From the NCBI GenBank assembly GCA_017448975.1, contig JAFSKN010000034.1, positions 1 to 53,207 of the forward strand: DNA of 53,207 bases, given 5' to 3'. Made by a program: the position numbers and the translations under genes. How positions within the stretch are numbered: position 1 is the first letter of the stretch; each line of letters begins with the position of its first letter. Shown piece after piece: positions 43,605 to 49,408 of the stretch. This DNA is from Clostridia bacterium (GTDB lineage: Bacteria > Bacillota > Clostridia > Christensenellales > Aristaeellaceae). A model generated the notes under the pieces. The model made no database searches. It was not told the DNA's origin and was given only the letters and a program-made list of their open reading frames with translations.

Positions 43605-44195
43605 CTAAATACCGTAATACGCGAAGTTTTGCAGCGGCCACACCCGCAGCACCACTTTGCCCATCAGTTCTTCCTTGCTGATGCAGCCGAAGGCCTGCAC
43701 GCGGCTGTCCACCGAGGAAGCGCGGTTATCGCCCATGACGAAAAGCTGCTCGGCGGGCACCGTATAGGGAAACTCGATATCGCACAGACCCAAATCATAG
43801 GTATGCACATAGGATTCATCCAGCACCAGACCGTTGACGGATACCCGGCCGTCCTCGTCGATTTCCAGCACGTCGCCGCCGGTAGCGATCACGCGCTTGA
43901 TGATCAGCTTGTTGTTATAGTAAAAGGAACACACGTCGCCGGGGGCGTATTCATTGGTTTTCAGGGCCACCAGCACATTGCCGGGAGCAAAATTGGGCTG
44001 CATGGAGGTGCCGGTCACGCGCAGCACGGGCAGGAAGATGGAAGCCACCAGCACCGCGATAGCCGCCACCACCACGATGGTACCGGCGGTGCTTTTCAGG
44101 GCCTGATGGTACTTGCTCTGGCTTTTGGCACGGCGCATTTCGTTCTGGATGGCGTCCAGATCGGGAAAGGGCGTTTGTTTTTTTCGCTTTGCCAT
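43605..44195 (-). CDS. lepB: Signal peptidase I
   Basis: The 196-residue protein is a type I signal peptidase with one N-terminal membrane helix (about 37-57) and an external catalytic domain. The catalytic Ser64 is in GTSMQP and the Lys100 in LIIKRVIATGGD. GDNRASSVDSR (155-165) is the conserved box. The active site is complete. GGGAG stands six bases before the ATG, inside the end of the coiled-coil gene. It is the last gene of the six-gene surface locus and the natural enzyme to process its exported proteins. Confidence 0.93.
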   Translation of the reverse strand: MAKRKKQTPFPDLDAIQNEMRRAKSQSKYHQALKSTAGTIVVVAAIAVLVASIFLPVLRVTGTSMQPNFAPGNVLVALKTNEYAPGDVCSFYYNNKLIIKRVIATGGDVLEIDEDGRVSVNGLVLDESYVHTYDLGLCDIEFPYTVPAEQLFVMGDNRASSVDSRVQAFGCISKEELMGKVVLRVWPLQNFAYYGI

Positions 44196-44198
44196 GGC

Positions 44199-44660
44199 TT
44201 ACTCCCTGCTTTCCCCGGGCTCACCGCCGCTTTCCAGGGGAAAGTCTGCTTCTTCCGCTTGGGGATCATCCGGGATCGCTGTCGGGGCGGGCTGTGGGGC
44301 GTTAAAATCGGGCAGGGGGAAGCATTCGGCCTGTTCATCTTCCTCGATGGCCGTCTTTTCCTGGCTTTCGTCCGCCTCATCCTTGCCCATGATCCGCTGG
44401 AACGCCATCATCCGTTCTTCGATTTCAAGCAGGCGTTTCTGCATCTCTTTGGCCGAGCCCTGCATACGAAGCTCGTCGATGCGCTGCACATACTCGGCCC
44501 GCACGGCTTCCACCCGCTGGTCGGCCTCTGTTTTCAGCTCCTCGATTTTCTTCTCCGCCGCTTCCAGGCGCTCGGTCAATTCCAGATTGGCCTTCCGCAT
44601 ATTGTAGATCAATTCCAGCAACTCGAAGCGGTCCATGCGCTTCAGCTTCGTTTTCGCCAC
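44199..44660 (-). CDS. Coiled-coil protein with acidic, Pro-rich tail
   Basis: The 153-residue protein begins with a basic patch (AKTKLKRMDRFELLELIYNMRKAN) of the length often seen before a coiled coil. A coiled coil follows over about 25-100 (LTERLEAAEKKIEELK and on), then a disordered acidic tail. There is no signal peptide, so it is cytoplasmic. I take the GTG at 44660, about nine bases after GGAGG; a TTG at 44702 overlapping the upstream stop and an ATG at 44669 with the ribosome site touching it are less likely. Role unknown; it may be an adaptor for the export locus. Confidence 0.65.
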   Translation of the reverse strand: MAKTKLKRMDRFELLELIYNMRKANLELTERLEAAEKKIEELKTEADQRVEAVRAEYVQRIDELRMQGSAKEMQKRLLEIEERMMAFQRIMGKDEADESQEKTAIEEDEQAECFPLPDFNAPQPAPTAIPDDPQAEEADFPLESGGEPGESRE

Positions 44661-44698
44661 TGTTCCCATCCTCCGTCTCTCCGTCAGGGAGATACCGA

Positions 44699-46801
44699 TC
44701 AATCGTCAAAGAGCATTTCGTCTTCGCCCAATTCTTCCTCGTCCCAATCGTCCCACGGGCTCGTCTCCGGAGCCAAACCGAAATAGGATTCCAAAATGGC
44801 CTGGGACCAGGTCACATGGGCGGTGATATAGTAATTCTGGAGATATTCCGTGTAGAAATCATAATAGATGTTGGAATAAATGGGGATGCAGGGCAGCACC
44901 TCATTGTACCGTTCCTGGAAGGAGATCCATTTGACCACATAGTCGTAAAGGGCTCCCGGAGGGGTTTTGCGCATGTCTACAGCCCGCTGGTACAGCTCCT
45001 CATCGTCGCTGTAGGTGTTGTTCCAGATCAGATGGTTGGGGGTGCTGTCGCAGCTGTACGTGATGGCCGGATCGACGACCACGTGGTAGTTGGTGGCCAG
45101 ATAGATCATATCCGTGGTGCGGGGCTTTTCCCGGTAGTAGGTGAGCAGCAGTTCTTCCATCTCCGTGGGCACCAGGGTGAGCAGGATGCCGCAGGCGTTC
45201 AGATTATCGATCATGTATTCCTGCATGTATTCGGCGATATGGTTGCCCGCCGGATACATCATGGACAGATTCAGGGCAATGAGCTCTCCGTCGATCACTT
45301 TGCAGCGCACGTCGTCCTCGCCGGGGCGGTAGGCTTCTCCCGCGCGGTTCAGGGTCCATCCCGCTTCGTCCAGCAATTGGTTGGCCCGGTCGGTATCCAC
45401 CGTATAGACGGTCAGGTTATCCAGGTTCAGGGCCTCCCATTGCTCGGTGAGCCTTTCCACTTCCTCGTCGGGCAGGGGATTATTGGGGTCATTGTCAATG
45501 GGGTAATCCAGCTGGCCGTTGATCAGCAGGTATTCCCACTGCTCGATGCCGTAATAGCCATCCACCCGCAGGCCGAAGTCCGAGCAGTAGGCCTTGGTGA
45601 GGGCGTCGCGGTCCATGCACCAGGCAATGGCCTGGCGAACTTTCTCTTCGTGCACCGTGGGCCAGTCGAAGGTAAAGGTCAGGAAGGCAAGACCGATGCG
45701 CGGATAAGGAGAGAAACGGAGGCCCTTACTGGGGCCGTTCTGCATGCCGTCCAGGATGGTGGGGCCGTATACCACCTTATTGACCAGGTGCAGTTCCCCG
45801 TCGGCCAATTGCTGGATCAGGGTATCATTATCCGCCACGGTGAAGCTGATGCGTTCGATGGTGGGGATCACGCCGTCCATGGTGCCCTTGAAATAGGGGT
45901 TCTTCTCAAAACAGGCGGTCACGCCGTCGTAAGACGTCATCACATAGGGACCGCACACCACGGAAGGATGGCTGTTATAGCCCGTTTCGGGATCCAGGAT
46001 GGTCCTGCGCAGCAGTTCGGCGGTGTAGACAGGCTCGGGATTGGACCTGTCCTCGTTTCCGATGTACACGCCGTAGCCGTCGTCGTACACCTTGCAGCCC
46101 GGGGCGATCACATGGATGGGATAGGGGCAGCAGAGCAGCAGGCCGATTTCAAAGAAATACGGCAGGAATTCGTGATCCAGGGTGATAGCCAGCTGGTAGG
46201 TATCCAGCACCTCCACGCCGCCTAAAGCGAAGGTTTGCCCGGTGATGTATTCGTTGTAGCCCAGGATATGCTCAGCCCGATAGATTTTGCCGCCGATCTG
46301 CTCGATCTCCGGGCTCATCATCAGCAGCAGGGAAAAGGCGTAATCCCAGGCTGTGATGGGCGTGCCGTCGGAGTAATACAGGTCTTCGTGCAGCGCCATG
46401 AAATAGGTGCGGTTCCCCGCAGCGTCGTCGTTGACGACCACGCGGGCAACTACGGAGGTATCGATCACATACGTGCCCTGCTCCTGATCCCAATTGACCA
46501 GATTGTAGCCGTGGATCAGCGCGCGCACGTCGATATCCGCCGTATCGTTGCCAAACATTTCCGTAAAGAAATCGCCCTTCATAACGGTTGGGTGGCCCAC
46601 CCGCAGTTCATCCGGAAACTCGATTTCTTCTTCTTCCGTTTCTTCCTCCGTTTGCGTATCCGAGGGTTCCCACAGATCCCATTCCTCCCAATCGTCCCAA
46701 CCGTCCTCGGCCAGCGCGGCAACGGGAAGCGCGGCAAGAAGAAGCGACAGAGCCAGCAACAGGCACAGAATTTTTTTCATGCCTTGATCGATTCTTTTCA
46801 T
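44699..46801 (-). CDS. Exported solute-binding protein, oligopeptide-binding (SBP_bac_5) family
   Basis: The 700-residue protein has a signal peptide (about 1-31, ending AALA) and an SBP_bac_5 domain (about 65-670), the family of DppA/OppA. Marks include LHEDLYYSDGTPITAWDYAFSLLLM, GPYVMTSYDG, KVRQAIAWCMDRDAL and TVYTVDTDRANQLLDEAGW (in parts). There is no lipobox Cys, so it is not a lipoprotein as would be expected in a Gram-positive. The mature ends are acidic and Trp-rich: GWDDWEEWDLWEPSD at the start and SPWDDWDEEELGEDE at the end. No permease or ATPase gene is nearby. Third-last gene of the surface locus. Confidence 0.85.
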   Translation of the reverse strand: MKRIDQGMKKILCLLLALSLLLAALPVAALAEDGWDDWEEWDLWEPSDTQTEEETEEEEIEFPDELRVGHPTVMKGDFFTEMFGNDTADIDVRALIHGYNLVNWDQEQGTYVIDTSVVARVVVNDDAAGNRTYFMALHEDLYYSDGTPITAWDYAFSLLLMMSPEIEQIGGKIYRAEHILGYNEYITGQTFALGGVEVLDTYQLAITLDHEFLPYFFEIGLLLCCPYPIHVIAPGCKVYDDGYGVYIGNEDRSNPEPVYTAELLRRTILDPETGYNSHPSVVCGPYVMTSYDGVTACFEKNPYFKGTMDGVIPTIERISFTVADNDTLIQQLADGELHLVNKVVYGPTILDGMQNGPSKGLRFSPYPRIGLAFLTFTFDWPTVHEEKVRQAIAWCMDRDALTKAYCSDFGLRVDGYYGIEQWEYLLINGQLDYPIDNDPNNPLPDEEVERLTEQWEALNLDNLTVYTVDTDRANQLLDEAGWTLNRAGEAYRPGEDDVRCKVIDGELIALNLSMMYPAGNHIAEYMQEYMIDNLNACGILLTLVPTEMEELLLTYYREKPRTTDMIYLATNYHVVVDPAITYSCDSTPNHLIWNNTYSDDEELYQRAVDMRKTPPGALYDYVVKWISFQERYNEVLPCIPIYSNIYYDFYTEYLQNYYITAHVTWSQAILESYFGLAPETSPWDDWDEEELGEDEMLFDD

Positions 46802-46830
46802 GGATCGTCACCCAATCCTTTCAGAAATAA

Positions 46831-47904
46831 TCAATCGAAACAGTCGCCCACATGATTGATGATCGCGCCAAGGCCCAAGGGGGTGTCGTAATCATCGATC
46901 GGAATGAGGGGATCGCCCCGGCCGGGCGGTGTGGGCTTCGGCGTTTCGCCGGGTTCCGGCGTGGGTGTGGGGGCGGGCGTTCTCTTTTCGATGGGGATAT
47001 AGGGGCTCGGCGTAGGTACCGGCGTGGGTGTGGCGTTCAGGTCCGGCGTCGGGGTCGGCGTGGGCCTGGGCGACGGCGTGGGCGTGACTGCGGGAACGAA
47101 GGTGGGCGTCGGCGTGGGCGACGGCCCGGGCGTCGGCGGCTCATCAGGTCCAGGCGTTTGGGTCGGCCCGGCCGGCGTTTCTGTGGGCGGCGGAGCCGTG
47201 ATCACCGGCGTAGGCGTGGGCGTTGGGGTTGGCCTGGGCGTCGGGGTCGGCGTGGGCGTACGGGTAGGCCGGGGCGTCGGCGTGCGTGTGGGCCTGGGTG
47301 TGGGGGTCGGCGTGGGGTTAGGCGTCGGGGTCGGCGTAGGCGTCGGCTCCTCGTCCTCAAATTTGGGCTTCACCGCCACATCGTACAGGATGCTCGTCTG
47401 CCCCTCGATGGTCAGGTAGAAGGGAATCGGCACCAGGGGGGACTGAATGAACAGCGTGTCCGGGCCTTCGCTCATTTCCACATAGTAAAGGCCGGAGGAA
47501 AGGCCGGTGAACTGGATCCTGCCCTTCTCCGTCATGGTGGACACGCGGCCCTGATACGGCGCGACGTTCTGGTTTTTGATGATCAGGGAGATAGAAGTAA
47601 TGACCTCGTCGATCATCTGGGAATTATCATTGCCGCTGCTCAGGTCTTCCATGATCTGCGTGATCTTGCCCGTCAGACCGGCGTACCGCTCCACGATGCC
47701 CCAGGAAACGCCGTTATTGGCGTCCACATAGCATTCGGCGATCTTATACAGGCTCATCTTCACCGTTTGATCCTTGTACTTCTCCGCCACGTTGGACGGC
47801 AGATCCATGGTCAGCGATCCAAGGCGATCCGCAGCCATCACAGGGAAGATGATTCCGATCGCCAGCAGGGCGATCAAAAGCCAAACCAGAAGCCTTTTCT
47901 TCAT
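46831..47904 (-). CDS. Pilin-like exported protein with Thr-Pro stalk and no LPXTG motif
   Basis: The 357-residue protein has a signal peptide (about 1-24). A SpaA/Cna-B pilin-like region (about 28-183) follows, with TVKMSLYKIA, GRIQFTGLSSGLYYVEM, a VPIPFYL strand and ILYDVAVKPK, all common in Gram-positive pilin subunits. About 150 residues of Thr-Pro repeats (187-334) make a likely wall-spanning stalk. The C-terminus ends DDYDTPLGLGAIINHVGDCFD with no LPXTG, no hydrophobic anchor and no basic tail, so a normal sortase could not attach it. It lies 4 bases after the pseudo-sortase gene. Name and function are inferred. Confidence 0.78.
   Translation of the reverse strand: MKKRLLVWLLIALLAIGIIFPVMAADRLGSLTMDLPSNVAEKYKDQTVKMSLYKIAECYVDANNGVSWGIVERYAGLTGKITQIMEDLSSGNDNSQMIDEVITSISLIIKNQNVAPYQGRVSTMTEKGRIQFTGLSSGLYYVEMSEGPDTLFIQSPLVPIPFYLTIEGQTSILYDVAVKPKFEDEEPTPTPTPTPNPTPTPTPRPTRTPTPRPTRTPTPTPTPRPTPTPTPTPVITAPPPTETPAGPTQTPGPDEPPTPGPSPTPTPTFVPAVTPTPSPRPTPTPTPDLNATPTPVPTPSPYIPIEKRTPAPTPTPEPGETPKPTPPGRGDPLIPIDDYDTPLGLGAIINHVGDCFD
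46902..47346 (-). repeat. Tandem Thr-Pro-coding repeats
   Basis: The plus strand shows many near-repeats of GGCGTGGGCGTCGG; in the minus-strand frame they code ACN-CCN (Thr-Pro), with Arg, Asn and Gly interruptions. Copy number is likely to vary between strains. Confidence 0.85.
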
Positions 47905-47908
47905 ACCC

Positions 47909-48787
47909 TCACCCCTCAGAACTGTTGCGCTTTTTGCTGTCAGCCGGCAGCCGGTAATGCCGCCGCCTGAACAATTCCACCAGTAACATGAACACCAGTC
48001 CCGCCGCCAGCACAGGCGAGCCGATCAGCAGAACGTTCGCCGCGTCCGACGGGATAGACGCGCCGTCGCCGTGTTCCAGCACGACGGAGTTGGCGGGAAG
48101 GCTCAGCCGTTTTCCGTAAACCAGCTGTCTCTCCTGCCCGCCCAGGTTGGTCATCACGGCCAGCCAGGCGTTTTCGCCCTCCGGCATGCGGATCTTCCCC
48201 GCCTGGGTCTTCTGGGTTTCCACCACCTCATAGGCTTGGGCGCCGCAGGGCGTGAACAGATACATGATGGTGCCCTGCTTTACCTGATCCAGCCGATGCA
48301 GCAGCTGCGCGCTGAACAGCTGAAATTTCTCCAGCCAGGGATCGATCCAGGGATTATCCAATTGGGTCAGCCGTCCGTTATTTCCGGCCAGCAGCGTGCG
48401 CGTTCCCTTTTCCCCGGTAGGCAGGGCGCTGGTGGCGGCGTGGATCACGCCCGTATCCCTGGCCTGGCTGTTTCCCGCGGGATACACCGGCAGGCGCACC
48501 CCGATCTCAGGGACTTCCAGCACGGCGATCAGCCCGTTCACCGTTTCGATTTCCGGAAGCTGCTTTTCTCCGGCGCCGGCGGCCAAAGCCTGATTGTACG
48601 CCTCCCAGGCGGCCCGGAAATCGGCGGCCTCATCATCGCTCATGGATTTTACCTGCTTTTCAAAGCTTTCTATCAGTGATATCTGCTGCGCCTGCTCCCT
48701 CTGATCGCTGAGATGAGGATACAGAACGAAAAACAGCACAGCCAGAACGGCCAGCAGACACGCCAGGTGACCAAAGAAGCTCTTCAT
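47909..48787 (-). CDS. Class C sortase homologue lacking catalytic His and Cys (pseudo-sortase)
   Basis: The 292-residue protein has class C sortase architecture: N-terminal membrane helix and LYPHLSD, a conserved YNQAL segment, a sortase barrel, and a C-terminal membrane helix with a basic tail (FRRRHYR). The match is clear at LIAVLEVPEIGVRLPVY and GVIHAATSALPTGEKGTRTLLAG. Where sortases have the catalytic His (AGHRG), it has Asn136-Asn137 (AGNNG). Where they have Cys (VTCTP), it has Met212 in AVMTN. The Arg (Arg220) is kept. The frame is intact. It cannot be a normal transpeptidase; scaffold or regulator is inferred. The ATG at 48787 follows AAGGGA. Confidence 0.85.
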   Translation of the reverse strand: MKSFFGHLACLLAVLAVLFFVLYPHLSDQREQAQQISLIESFEKQVKSMSDDEAADFRAAWEAYNQALAAGAGEKQLPEIETVNGLIAVLEVPEIGVRLPVYPAGNSQARDTGVIHAATSALPTGEKGTRTLLAGNNGRLTQLDNPWIDPWLEKFQLFSAQLLHRLDQVKQGTIMYLFTPCGAQAYEVVETQKTQAGKIRMPEGENAWLAVMTNLGGQERQLVYGKRLSLPANSVVLEHGDGASIPSDAANVLLIGSPVLAAGLVFMLLVELFRRRHYRLPADSKKRNSSEG

Positions 48788-48826
48788 CAATCTGTCCCTT
48801 CCACTTCATTTATCGCCCGGCGCACT

Positions 48827-49408
48827 TTACCGGATCTGTTTGCCGGCCCGGTGCAGCGGCCACAGCGTGTATTCCGCCACGCCCAGGATTTCTTCCGCTT
48901 TCACATAGCCGTAATCGGGGCTCCGGCTGTCCACGGACAGGCCGTATTCGTCCCCCAGCACATAAAAGGAATCTTCCGGCACCGTAATGGGCTGCAAAGC
49001 CAGCTGCGCATCATAGCCCGAAAAATCGCTTTTGAAATCGGCCACCGCCTTGCCGTTGATCCACAGCCTGCCATTTTGGCTCAGGGCCACGCTGTCGCCG
49101 CCCACGGCGGCCACGCGCTTGAACTGCCAGCCGCTGCCGTGCTCAAAGAGGATCACGTCGCCCACCCGGGGCCGTGCCCCATGGGTGCGACGGCAAAGCA
49201 CCACGCTGCCGCTGAGCAGGGTGCCATTCATGCCCGCGCCATCCACCACGGCCAGGGTATAAAACTGATTGAACACATACCAGCCCGAAGCGGCCGCCAG
49301 GGTAAACCAAATCAGCAAGCCCCAGGCCAGCCGCTTGCGCTTGCTTTTTCTTTTTACGCGCCGCATTTCCCGCAGCACTTCTTCTTCCGTTGGCCGGTAT
49401 AGCTCCAT
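48827..49408 (-). CDS. Signal peptidase I homologue lacking the catalytic Ser (pseudo-signal peptidase)
   Basis: The 193-residue protein has the fold and most motifs of signal peptidase I: one membrane helix (about 28-47), Lys97 in FKRVAAVGGD, and GDEYGLSVDSR (152-162). At the active-site serine, where GxSMxPTL is expected, it reads GAGMNGTL, so Ser is Gly59 and Pro is Gly62. It should be unable to cleave. It shares the basic amino end and overall size with the intact enzyme at 43605-44195. First gene of the leftward surface locus, with a promoter at 49496-49524. Confidence 0.83.
   Translation of the reverse strand: MELYRPTEEEVLREMRRVKRKSKRKRLAWGLLIWFTLAAASGWYVFNQFYTLAVVDGAGMNGTLLSGSVVLCRRTHGARPRVGDVILFEHGSGWQFKRVAAVGGDSVALSQNGRLWINGKAVADFKSDFSGYDAQLALQPITVPEDSFYVLGDEYGLSVDSRSPDYGYVKAEEILGVAEYTLWPLHRAGKQIR

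Follow-up and report, generated by a model that had tools for sequence, protein, structure and literature searches.

What can a surface-protein locus do when the two enzymes at its head lack the residues with which such enzymes cut and join? The question is raised by six genes in the window, that is, the whole 53,207-nucleotide stretch of DNA analysed here, which is a contig of a Clostridia bacterium (JAFSKN010000034.1). The genome assembly to which it belongs comprises 3.08 Mb in 80 contigs and is 85% complete, and three of its close relatives are rumen-type metagenome-assembled genomes (red deer, goat reticulum and RUG10975). The answer that we favour, while giving it slightly less than an even chance, is that a sortase-pilus cluster has been rebuilt into a surface display system which no longer uses its own sortase catalytically. 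The parts of the locus are as follows.

48827..49408, minus strand: gene 1, signal-peptidase-like (S26) protein with the catalytic Ser replaced by Gly (family scan and active-site alignment).
47909..48787, minus strand: gene 2, class C sortase-like protein with His and Cys replaced by Asn, Arg kept and two membrane segments.
46831..47904, minus strand: gene 3, pilin-like surface protein with a signal peptide, a shaft-pilin D1-type domain, a Pro-Thr stalk and a C-terminal tail, without LPXTG.
46834..46902, minus strand: conserved C-terminal tail of gene 3, PIDDYDTPLGLGAIINHVGDCFD-COOH.
44699..46801, minus strand: gene 4, exported OppA-type (SBP_bac_5) protein without a lipobox, putative partner of tail-bearing proteins.
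44199..44660, minus strand: gene 5, predicted cytoplasmic coiled-coil protein, start set by alignment.
43605..44195, minus strand: gene 6, signal peptidase I with the Ser-Lys dyad intact, a second such enzyme beside the housekeeping copy on contig C79.
49496..49524, minus strand: possible promoter, TTGTTT-17-TATAAT with an extended -10, found by eye.

The six genes are tightly spaced on the minus strand, from 49408 down to 43605. An earlier sequence-only reading of the window had proposed this gene content at these coordinates and both are confirmed. Its description of gene 1 as lacking Ser, gene 2 as lacking His and Cys and gene 6 as intact is borne out by active-site alignment, and gene 3 and gene 4 are, as it stated, without LPXTG and without a lipobox respectively. 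Gene 1 matches Peptidase_S26 (2.1e-20) and has Gly at the Ser site with the Lys kept, thus the Ser-Lys dyad of an active signal peptidase I is absent. Gene 6, matching signal peptidase I at 8.5e-32, has both residues. For gene 2, the Pfam Sortase score of 29.5 bits is over the cut-off of 26.6 and the match to the class C sortase model NF033745 (7.2e-18, 65 bits) is below that model's cut-off of 160. Its structural model (pLDDT 83.1) has the class C sortase fold, the best match in the Protein Data Bank being the Clostridium perfringens SrtC 7d6t (E 2.9e-15, TM 0.83 by target length). The fold is therefore that of a class C sortase, but the His-Cys-Arg active site is not, since Asn stands at both the His and the Cys sites and only the Arg remains.

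Using gene 2 as query, matches were found in 17 of 120 relatives' genomes, eight of these 17 being in the window's own genus (g1, 29 members), where the locus has a patchy distribution. The full six-gene order is present in 13 loci, those of the window and of 12 relatives from two genera: G003, G004, G005, G006 and G010 in g1, and G141, G165, G185, G204, G220, G233 and G253 in g27. Four more loci (in G016, G025 where it lies on two contigs, G131 and G237) run into the end of a contig and were left out of this count, giving 17 loci of the six-gene type. Genes 1 and 2 are adjacent in every one. Scattering of the genes among relatives, which the sequence-only reading took as an argument against a single system, was thus not observed. 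In the stretches fetched from G003, G004 and G006 the six genes are all that is shared with the window, no other window gene being matched, so the six hold together in different surroundings. Frames and order are intact across the two genera even though gene 2 identity drops to about 25-30%.

The active sites are broken throughout this set. The gene 1 dyad is lost in 17/17 six-gene-type copies, with Ser changed to Gly or Ala in 16; the copy in G004 retains Ser but has Arg in place of Lys. In gene 2 the Cys is absent from all 17 copies and the His from 16, while Arg is kept in 14. The distant gene 2 of G237 does align a His with that site, yet the GH motif is missing. Wherever the full order is found in a relative, the sortase-like gene has lost catalytic residues. 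The ratio of non-synonymous to synonymous change (dN/dS), calculated by NG86 among G000, G005, G010 and G025 with four neighbouring genes as controls (0.10-0.34), is low for both dead enzymes, 0.15-0.21 for gene 1 and 0.08-0.24 for gene 2. The corresponding values are 0.20-0.23 for gene 3, 0.08-0.15 for gene 4 and 0.03-0.13 for gene 6; constraint is weakest on gene 5 (0.21-0.52). The dead pair is under purifying selection, which supports selected non-enzymatic roles for both proteins.

The strongest and most unusual signal at the locus, which escaped the sequence-only reading, is the C-terminal tail of gene 3 together with its pairing with gene 4. In the family scan gene 3 gave only a weak SpaH/EbpB pilin match (3.8e-6). 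Its N-domain is modelled as a shaft-pilin D1 domain (pLDDT 87.5) and pilins are its top Foldseek matches, with modest scores (best CppA, 5xcb, E 3.1e-5; 29 chains below 0.001). This domain ends with a Lys (VKPK) in the window and in many, not all, relatives, and this may be the pilin-motif lysine. Gene 3 has the N-domain of a sortase-dependent pilin but not the LPXTG-like motif, the C-terminal membrane segment or the basic tail; it ends NHVGDCFD. The consensus for window-type tails is ..DYxTPLGxGxxxNHVGDCFD-COOH, and the slightly looser pattern (..)DYxTPLGxGxxxxHVG(D/V)C(F/Y)(D/E) is present in 15/15 six-gene-type loci where the end of gene 3 is in the sequence. Among 77 distinct tails, Gly is found at -5 in 76, Cys at -3 in 73 and Asp or Glu at -1 in all 77. 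The tails of L188, L189, L079 and L226 have Thr instead of the conserved Cys and are otherwise largely kept. The same tail closes surface proteins of great length elsewhere in the family, encoded by frames of up to about 6,000 codons, and several tail-bearing proteins carry Cna_B, FctA or SpaA domains. Three tail proteins were scanned with NCBIfam, none of whose models covered the tail. Among the genomes sampled, full-length tails were found only in this family; beyond it, the order (396 genomes) and the class (391 genomes), both sampled from larger groups, each gave one partial match (G409 and G931).

Gene 4 matches SBP_bac_5 (4.5e-35), and among solved sequences an OppA (9p48) is nearest to it. 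Relatives with E-values up to 1e-60 are present in at least 89 of 200 family genomes, with five candidates scored per genome. Sixty regions were taken from the relatives listed, roughly from the best E-value down, and contain 61 of these gene 4 relatives, three of them at a contig edge. Among these best matches, 56 of the 58 with upstream sequence directly follow a tail gene on the same strand. The other open reading frames of at least 100 codons in the same regions end in the tail pattern in 1 of 1073 cases, and that one is a class B sortase gene in a tail module. Gene 4 shares with OppA/DppA-type solute-binding proteins the fold family and a signal peptide. It differs in that most relatives (81/88) are, like the window copy, without a lipobox and in that the linkage is to tail-bearing surface proteins, not to permeases: none of ten downstream neighbours sampled was a transporter or permease gene, and the window's locus holds no permease, unlinked permeases lying outside the search. 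The SBP_bac_5 domain of an ABC importer binding protein is therefore present in gene 4 without the lipoprotein anchor or the linked permease.

The origin of this arrangement can be traced in genus g17 and a few others, where the gene 1 - gene 2 - gene 3 trio sits in pilus-type loci of the LPXTG kind. In 10/10 trio loci with the gene 3 end in the sequence, the protein has an LPXTG-like signal, a membrane segment and a basic tail, e.g. FDYGTPLWGGLLGTGDETP.., and gene 4 is absent. The LPXTG signal and the window-type tail are both preceded by DYxTPL and diverge after it. The gene 1 homologue has a broken dyad in 12/12 trio-type loci. Across eleven trio loci the gene 2 homologue is without Cys in nine and without His in eight; G135 and G230 have both residues, while in G192 the His is present and the Cys replaced by Gly. 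Counting only the nine LPXTG-type loci of g17, this second sortase is intact in two. In a sortase tree of 35 rows, the six-gene-type copies including G237 fall on one side of a branch with support 98/96; the root is a midpoint root and G237 and G136 are long branches.

Given that the second sortase is intact in two g17 loci, the loss of catalysis is old and occurred within the sortase-pilus lineage. Since the related loci of this third genus are LPXTG pilus clusters, the six-gene locus is a modified form of an already known kind of cluster, a sortase-pilus variant. We infer that gene 1 lost catalysis first and gene 2 later, and that the tail replaced the LPXTG signal. The earlier claim of two independent losses needs care: catalysis is indeed lost in both genes, but both losses are old and common to the whole group, and gene 1-like copies are broken even where the second sortase is intact. 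Similarly, the absence of relatives with intact residues, to which that reading had tied its case against recent inactivation, holds inside the six-gene type but not among the LPXTG-type relatives of g17. The relatives form a graded series, from an intact second sortase through loss of the Cys to loss of both Cys and His, and this series together with the dead folds makes it possible to ask what such folds do when unable to cut or join.

Resemblance to characterised pilus loci is partial. Class C sortase pilus clusters, such as C. perfringens CppA/SrtC and Corynebacterium Spa, resemble the window's locus in the folds of gene 2 (sortase) and gene 3 (shaft-pilin D1). They differ from it in that the locus has no live sortase and no LPXTG signal, has an added OppA-type protein and ends its surface protein with a new C-terminal tail. 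With LPXTG and a live sortase both missing, the window's own locus is unlikely to polymerise its pilin-like protein covalently; the term pilus-like, used in the sequence-only reading, thus stands for descent and for the N-domain fold but not for this step. A dead signal peptidase serving pilus assembly is already known. According to two reports, SipA/LepA of the FCT pilus loci of group A Streptococcus (S. pyogenes) has a signal-peptidase fold without the Ser-Lys dyad, is required for pilus polymerisation and has been proposed to act as a chaperone (PMC4049620, PMC7900414). Gene 1 likewise has a signal-peptidase fold with a broken dyad and lies in a pilus-type operon, whereas the partners of SipA are a live class B sortase and LPXTG-like pilins, neither of which is present in the window's locus. 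Compared with the sequences of solved structures, gene 1 is not closer to SipA (4n31, 4.3e-6) than to an active signal peptidase (4me8, 1.4e-6), thus its catalysis was probably lost separately from that of SipA/LepA. Given the SipA/LepA precedent, a chaperone or scaffold role is reasonable for the dead pair, in keeping with two of the three roles (receptor, chaperone, scaffold) suggested earlier. The role of the dead signal peptidase in pilus loci is debated, and the dead sortase seen here is an addition to it.

A mechanism of the following kind can be proposed. Gene 3 would cross the membrane through Sec, with gene 6, the dedicated signal peptidase, removing its signal peptide. The membrane-anchored dead proteins of genes 1 and 2 would hold the exported chain by their clefts as a platform or chaperone, in the manner proposed for SipA/LepA. 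The chain would then be retained at the surface via the C-terminal tail, in place of an LPXTG signal, with the OppA-type protein of gene 4 as the cognate receptor or escort of the tail. Retention through the tail and gene 4 is favoured because the catalytic routes of the locus itself are closed in the window and LPXTG is gone. A more specific form is put forward with less confidence, at roughly one chance in three: the tail (..DYxTPLGxGxxxNxG[DE]CF[DE]-COOH) would be a signal with the OppA-type protein as its receptor, which would grip very large adhesins by their free C-terminus. Such a system would have evolved by replacement of LPXTG, with the dead signal peptidase and dead sortase as a non-catalytic loading platform. 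We infer all of the binding events, the retention function and any role of gene 5 from sequence and predicted structure.

Several observations weigh against this proposal. The gene 6 dyad is intact in 7/7 g1 copies and in G165, G220 and G256, but, unexpectedly, in five of the seven g27 loci (L170, L171, L173, L174 and L175) Ser is replaced by Asn and Lys by Arg, therefore the signal-peptide cleavage step cannot be general. In these five loci, therefore, the sortase and both signal-peptidase-like proteins are dead. The window's genome has live sortases elsewhere, on contigs C40 and C53, and six of the seven g27 loci have a live class C sortase close by, which leaves room for covalent anchoring in trans. 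The tail-gene 4 pairing is one-sided: the gene 4 relatives of L224 and L225 have no upstream tail gene and, in the near-complete g27 genomes G165, G204 and G233, 9 of 16 full-length tails adjoin a gene 4 relative, the other seven having no component nearby in the stretches fetched. These lone tail-bearing surface genes (L275, L277, L279, L281, L283, L284 and L285) have no OppA-type, sortase or signal-peptidase-like gene around them; they would fit a receptor shared by several clients and also a different function of the tail. A lipobox-like match in 7/88 gene 4 relatives means that the location of this protein may vary. Finally, a disulphide between the tail Cys and gene 4 was considered and is not supported, as no covariation is seen: the gene 4 partners of the four Cys-less tails keep the most conserved Cys (position 395, 81/88) and the seven gene 4 relatives without that Cys occur with a tail that keeps its own.

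Other forms of the module bear on the same question. In several tail modules a class B sortase with its His and Cys precedes the tail gene, and most of these class B sortase modules also carry a dead signal-peptidase-like protein. In L212 this protein matches SipA/LepA (1.7e-21), and its dyad sites are occupied by Asp and Gly, replacements also described for SipA. This co-occurrence of a SipA relative, a live sortase, a tail and an OppA-type protein supports the theme of a dead signal peptidase plus a tail, and it also keeps alive the alternative of a sortase acting in trans. The second dead signal-peptidase-like family is found beside class B sortase, tail protein and OppA-type protein in L099, L195, L207 and L212, and such modules occur also in L079, L100, L103, L215 and L222. 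In L222 (494-4423), L215 (238-2277) and L100 (9884-11734) the tail protein itself carries, fused at its N-terminus, a class B sortase domain in which His and Cys are present, and in L222 ten Cna_B stretches come after it. Dead class C sortases fused in tail proteins were looked for by simple profile search and not found, the fused domains seen being of class B. Two class B sortases, in L195 (3321-4133) and L099 (4482-5312), themselves end in a tail-like GECFE or GECLE, possibly by chance.

The alternative that survives best, though with perhaps one chance in four, is a SipA-type chaperone locus in which genes 1 and 2 guide gene 3 to a live sortase in trans, joining is covalent and the tail is a degenerate or non-standard sorting signal. 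The SipA/LepA precedent speaks for it, as do the two other sortases of the window's genome, the live class C sortases near the g27 loci and those just upstream of 9/11 trio loci; some 92 modules include 10 in which the tail protein has a class B sortase gene as its neighbour or a class B sortase domain adjoining or fused to it, in many cases with a SipA-family protein in front. Against this, the tail has no LPXTG-like stretch, membrane segment or basic end and most tail modules fetched have no adjoining sortase gene. G000 has a single tail gene, with no sortase close by. Furthermore, G010 carries the locus, and the only sortase found there with PF04203 is the dead one, in an assembly 88% complete.

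It is rather improbable that gene 4 is an ordinary peptide-binding protein for uptake or signalling, co-transcribed by chance, with the tail serving folding, secretion or the like. Gene 4 is clearly an SBP_bac_5 protein with OppA as its nearest solved sequence, but the linkage to tail genes extends across many genera among the best matches listed and the general lack of a lipobox and of neighbouring permeases does not suit importers. Decay of a pilus locus, with the enzymes dead by neglect, would account for the catalytic residues lost in two genes but is rejected as barely credible given the intact frames and conserved order across two genera, the low dN/dS and the fact that every member of the locus type has lost these active sites.

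The tail and the OppA-type protein linked to it suggest that Clostridia of the gut and rumen display proteins by a route to which searches for LPXTG signals would be blind, one that would cover surface proteins from the roughly 6,000-codon frames downwards. This mode of surface retention may not have been described before. Literature searches on dead sortases, Christensenellales sortases, non-canonical sorting signals with binding proteins, and rumen class B sortases with signal peptidases turned up nothing on this locus, a statement limited to those searches.

The remaining observations concern single genes and transcription. The loss in gene 4 of the Asp that binds the peptide N-terminus in OppA was considered as a clue to function and nothing is drawn from it, since a solved OppA relative also lacks the Asp; the presumed site is mostly Asn (74/88). 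The single promoter claimed in the sequence-only reading is made plausible by the by-eye candidate at 49524-49496, but a consensus promoter scan listed none on the minus strand. Gene 5 matched no family over a cut-off. Alignment with relatives places the start of gene 5 at GTG 44660, not at TTG 44702, and that of gene 2 at ATG 48787.

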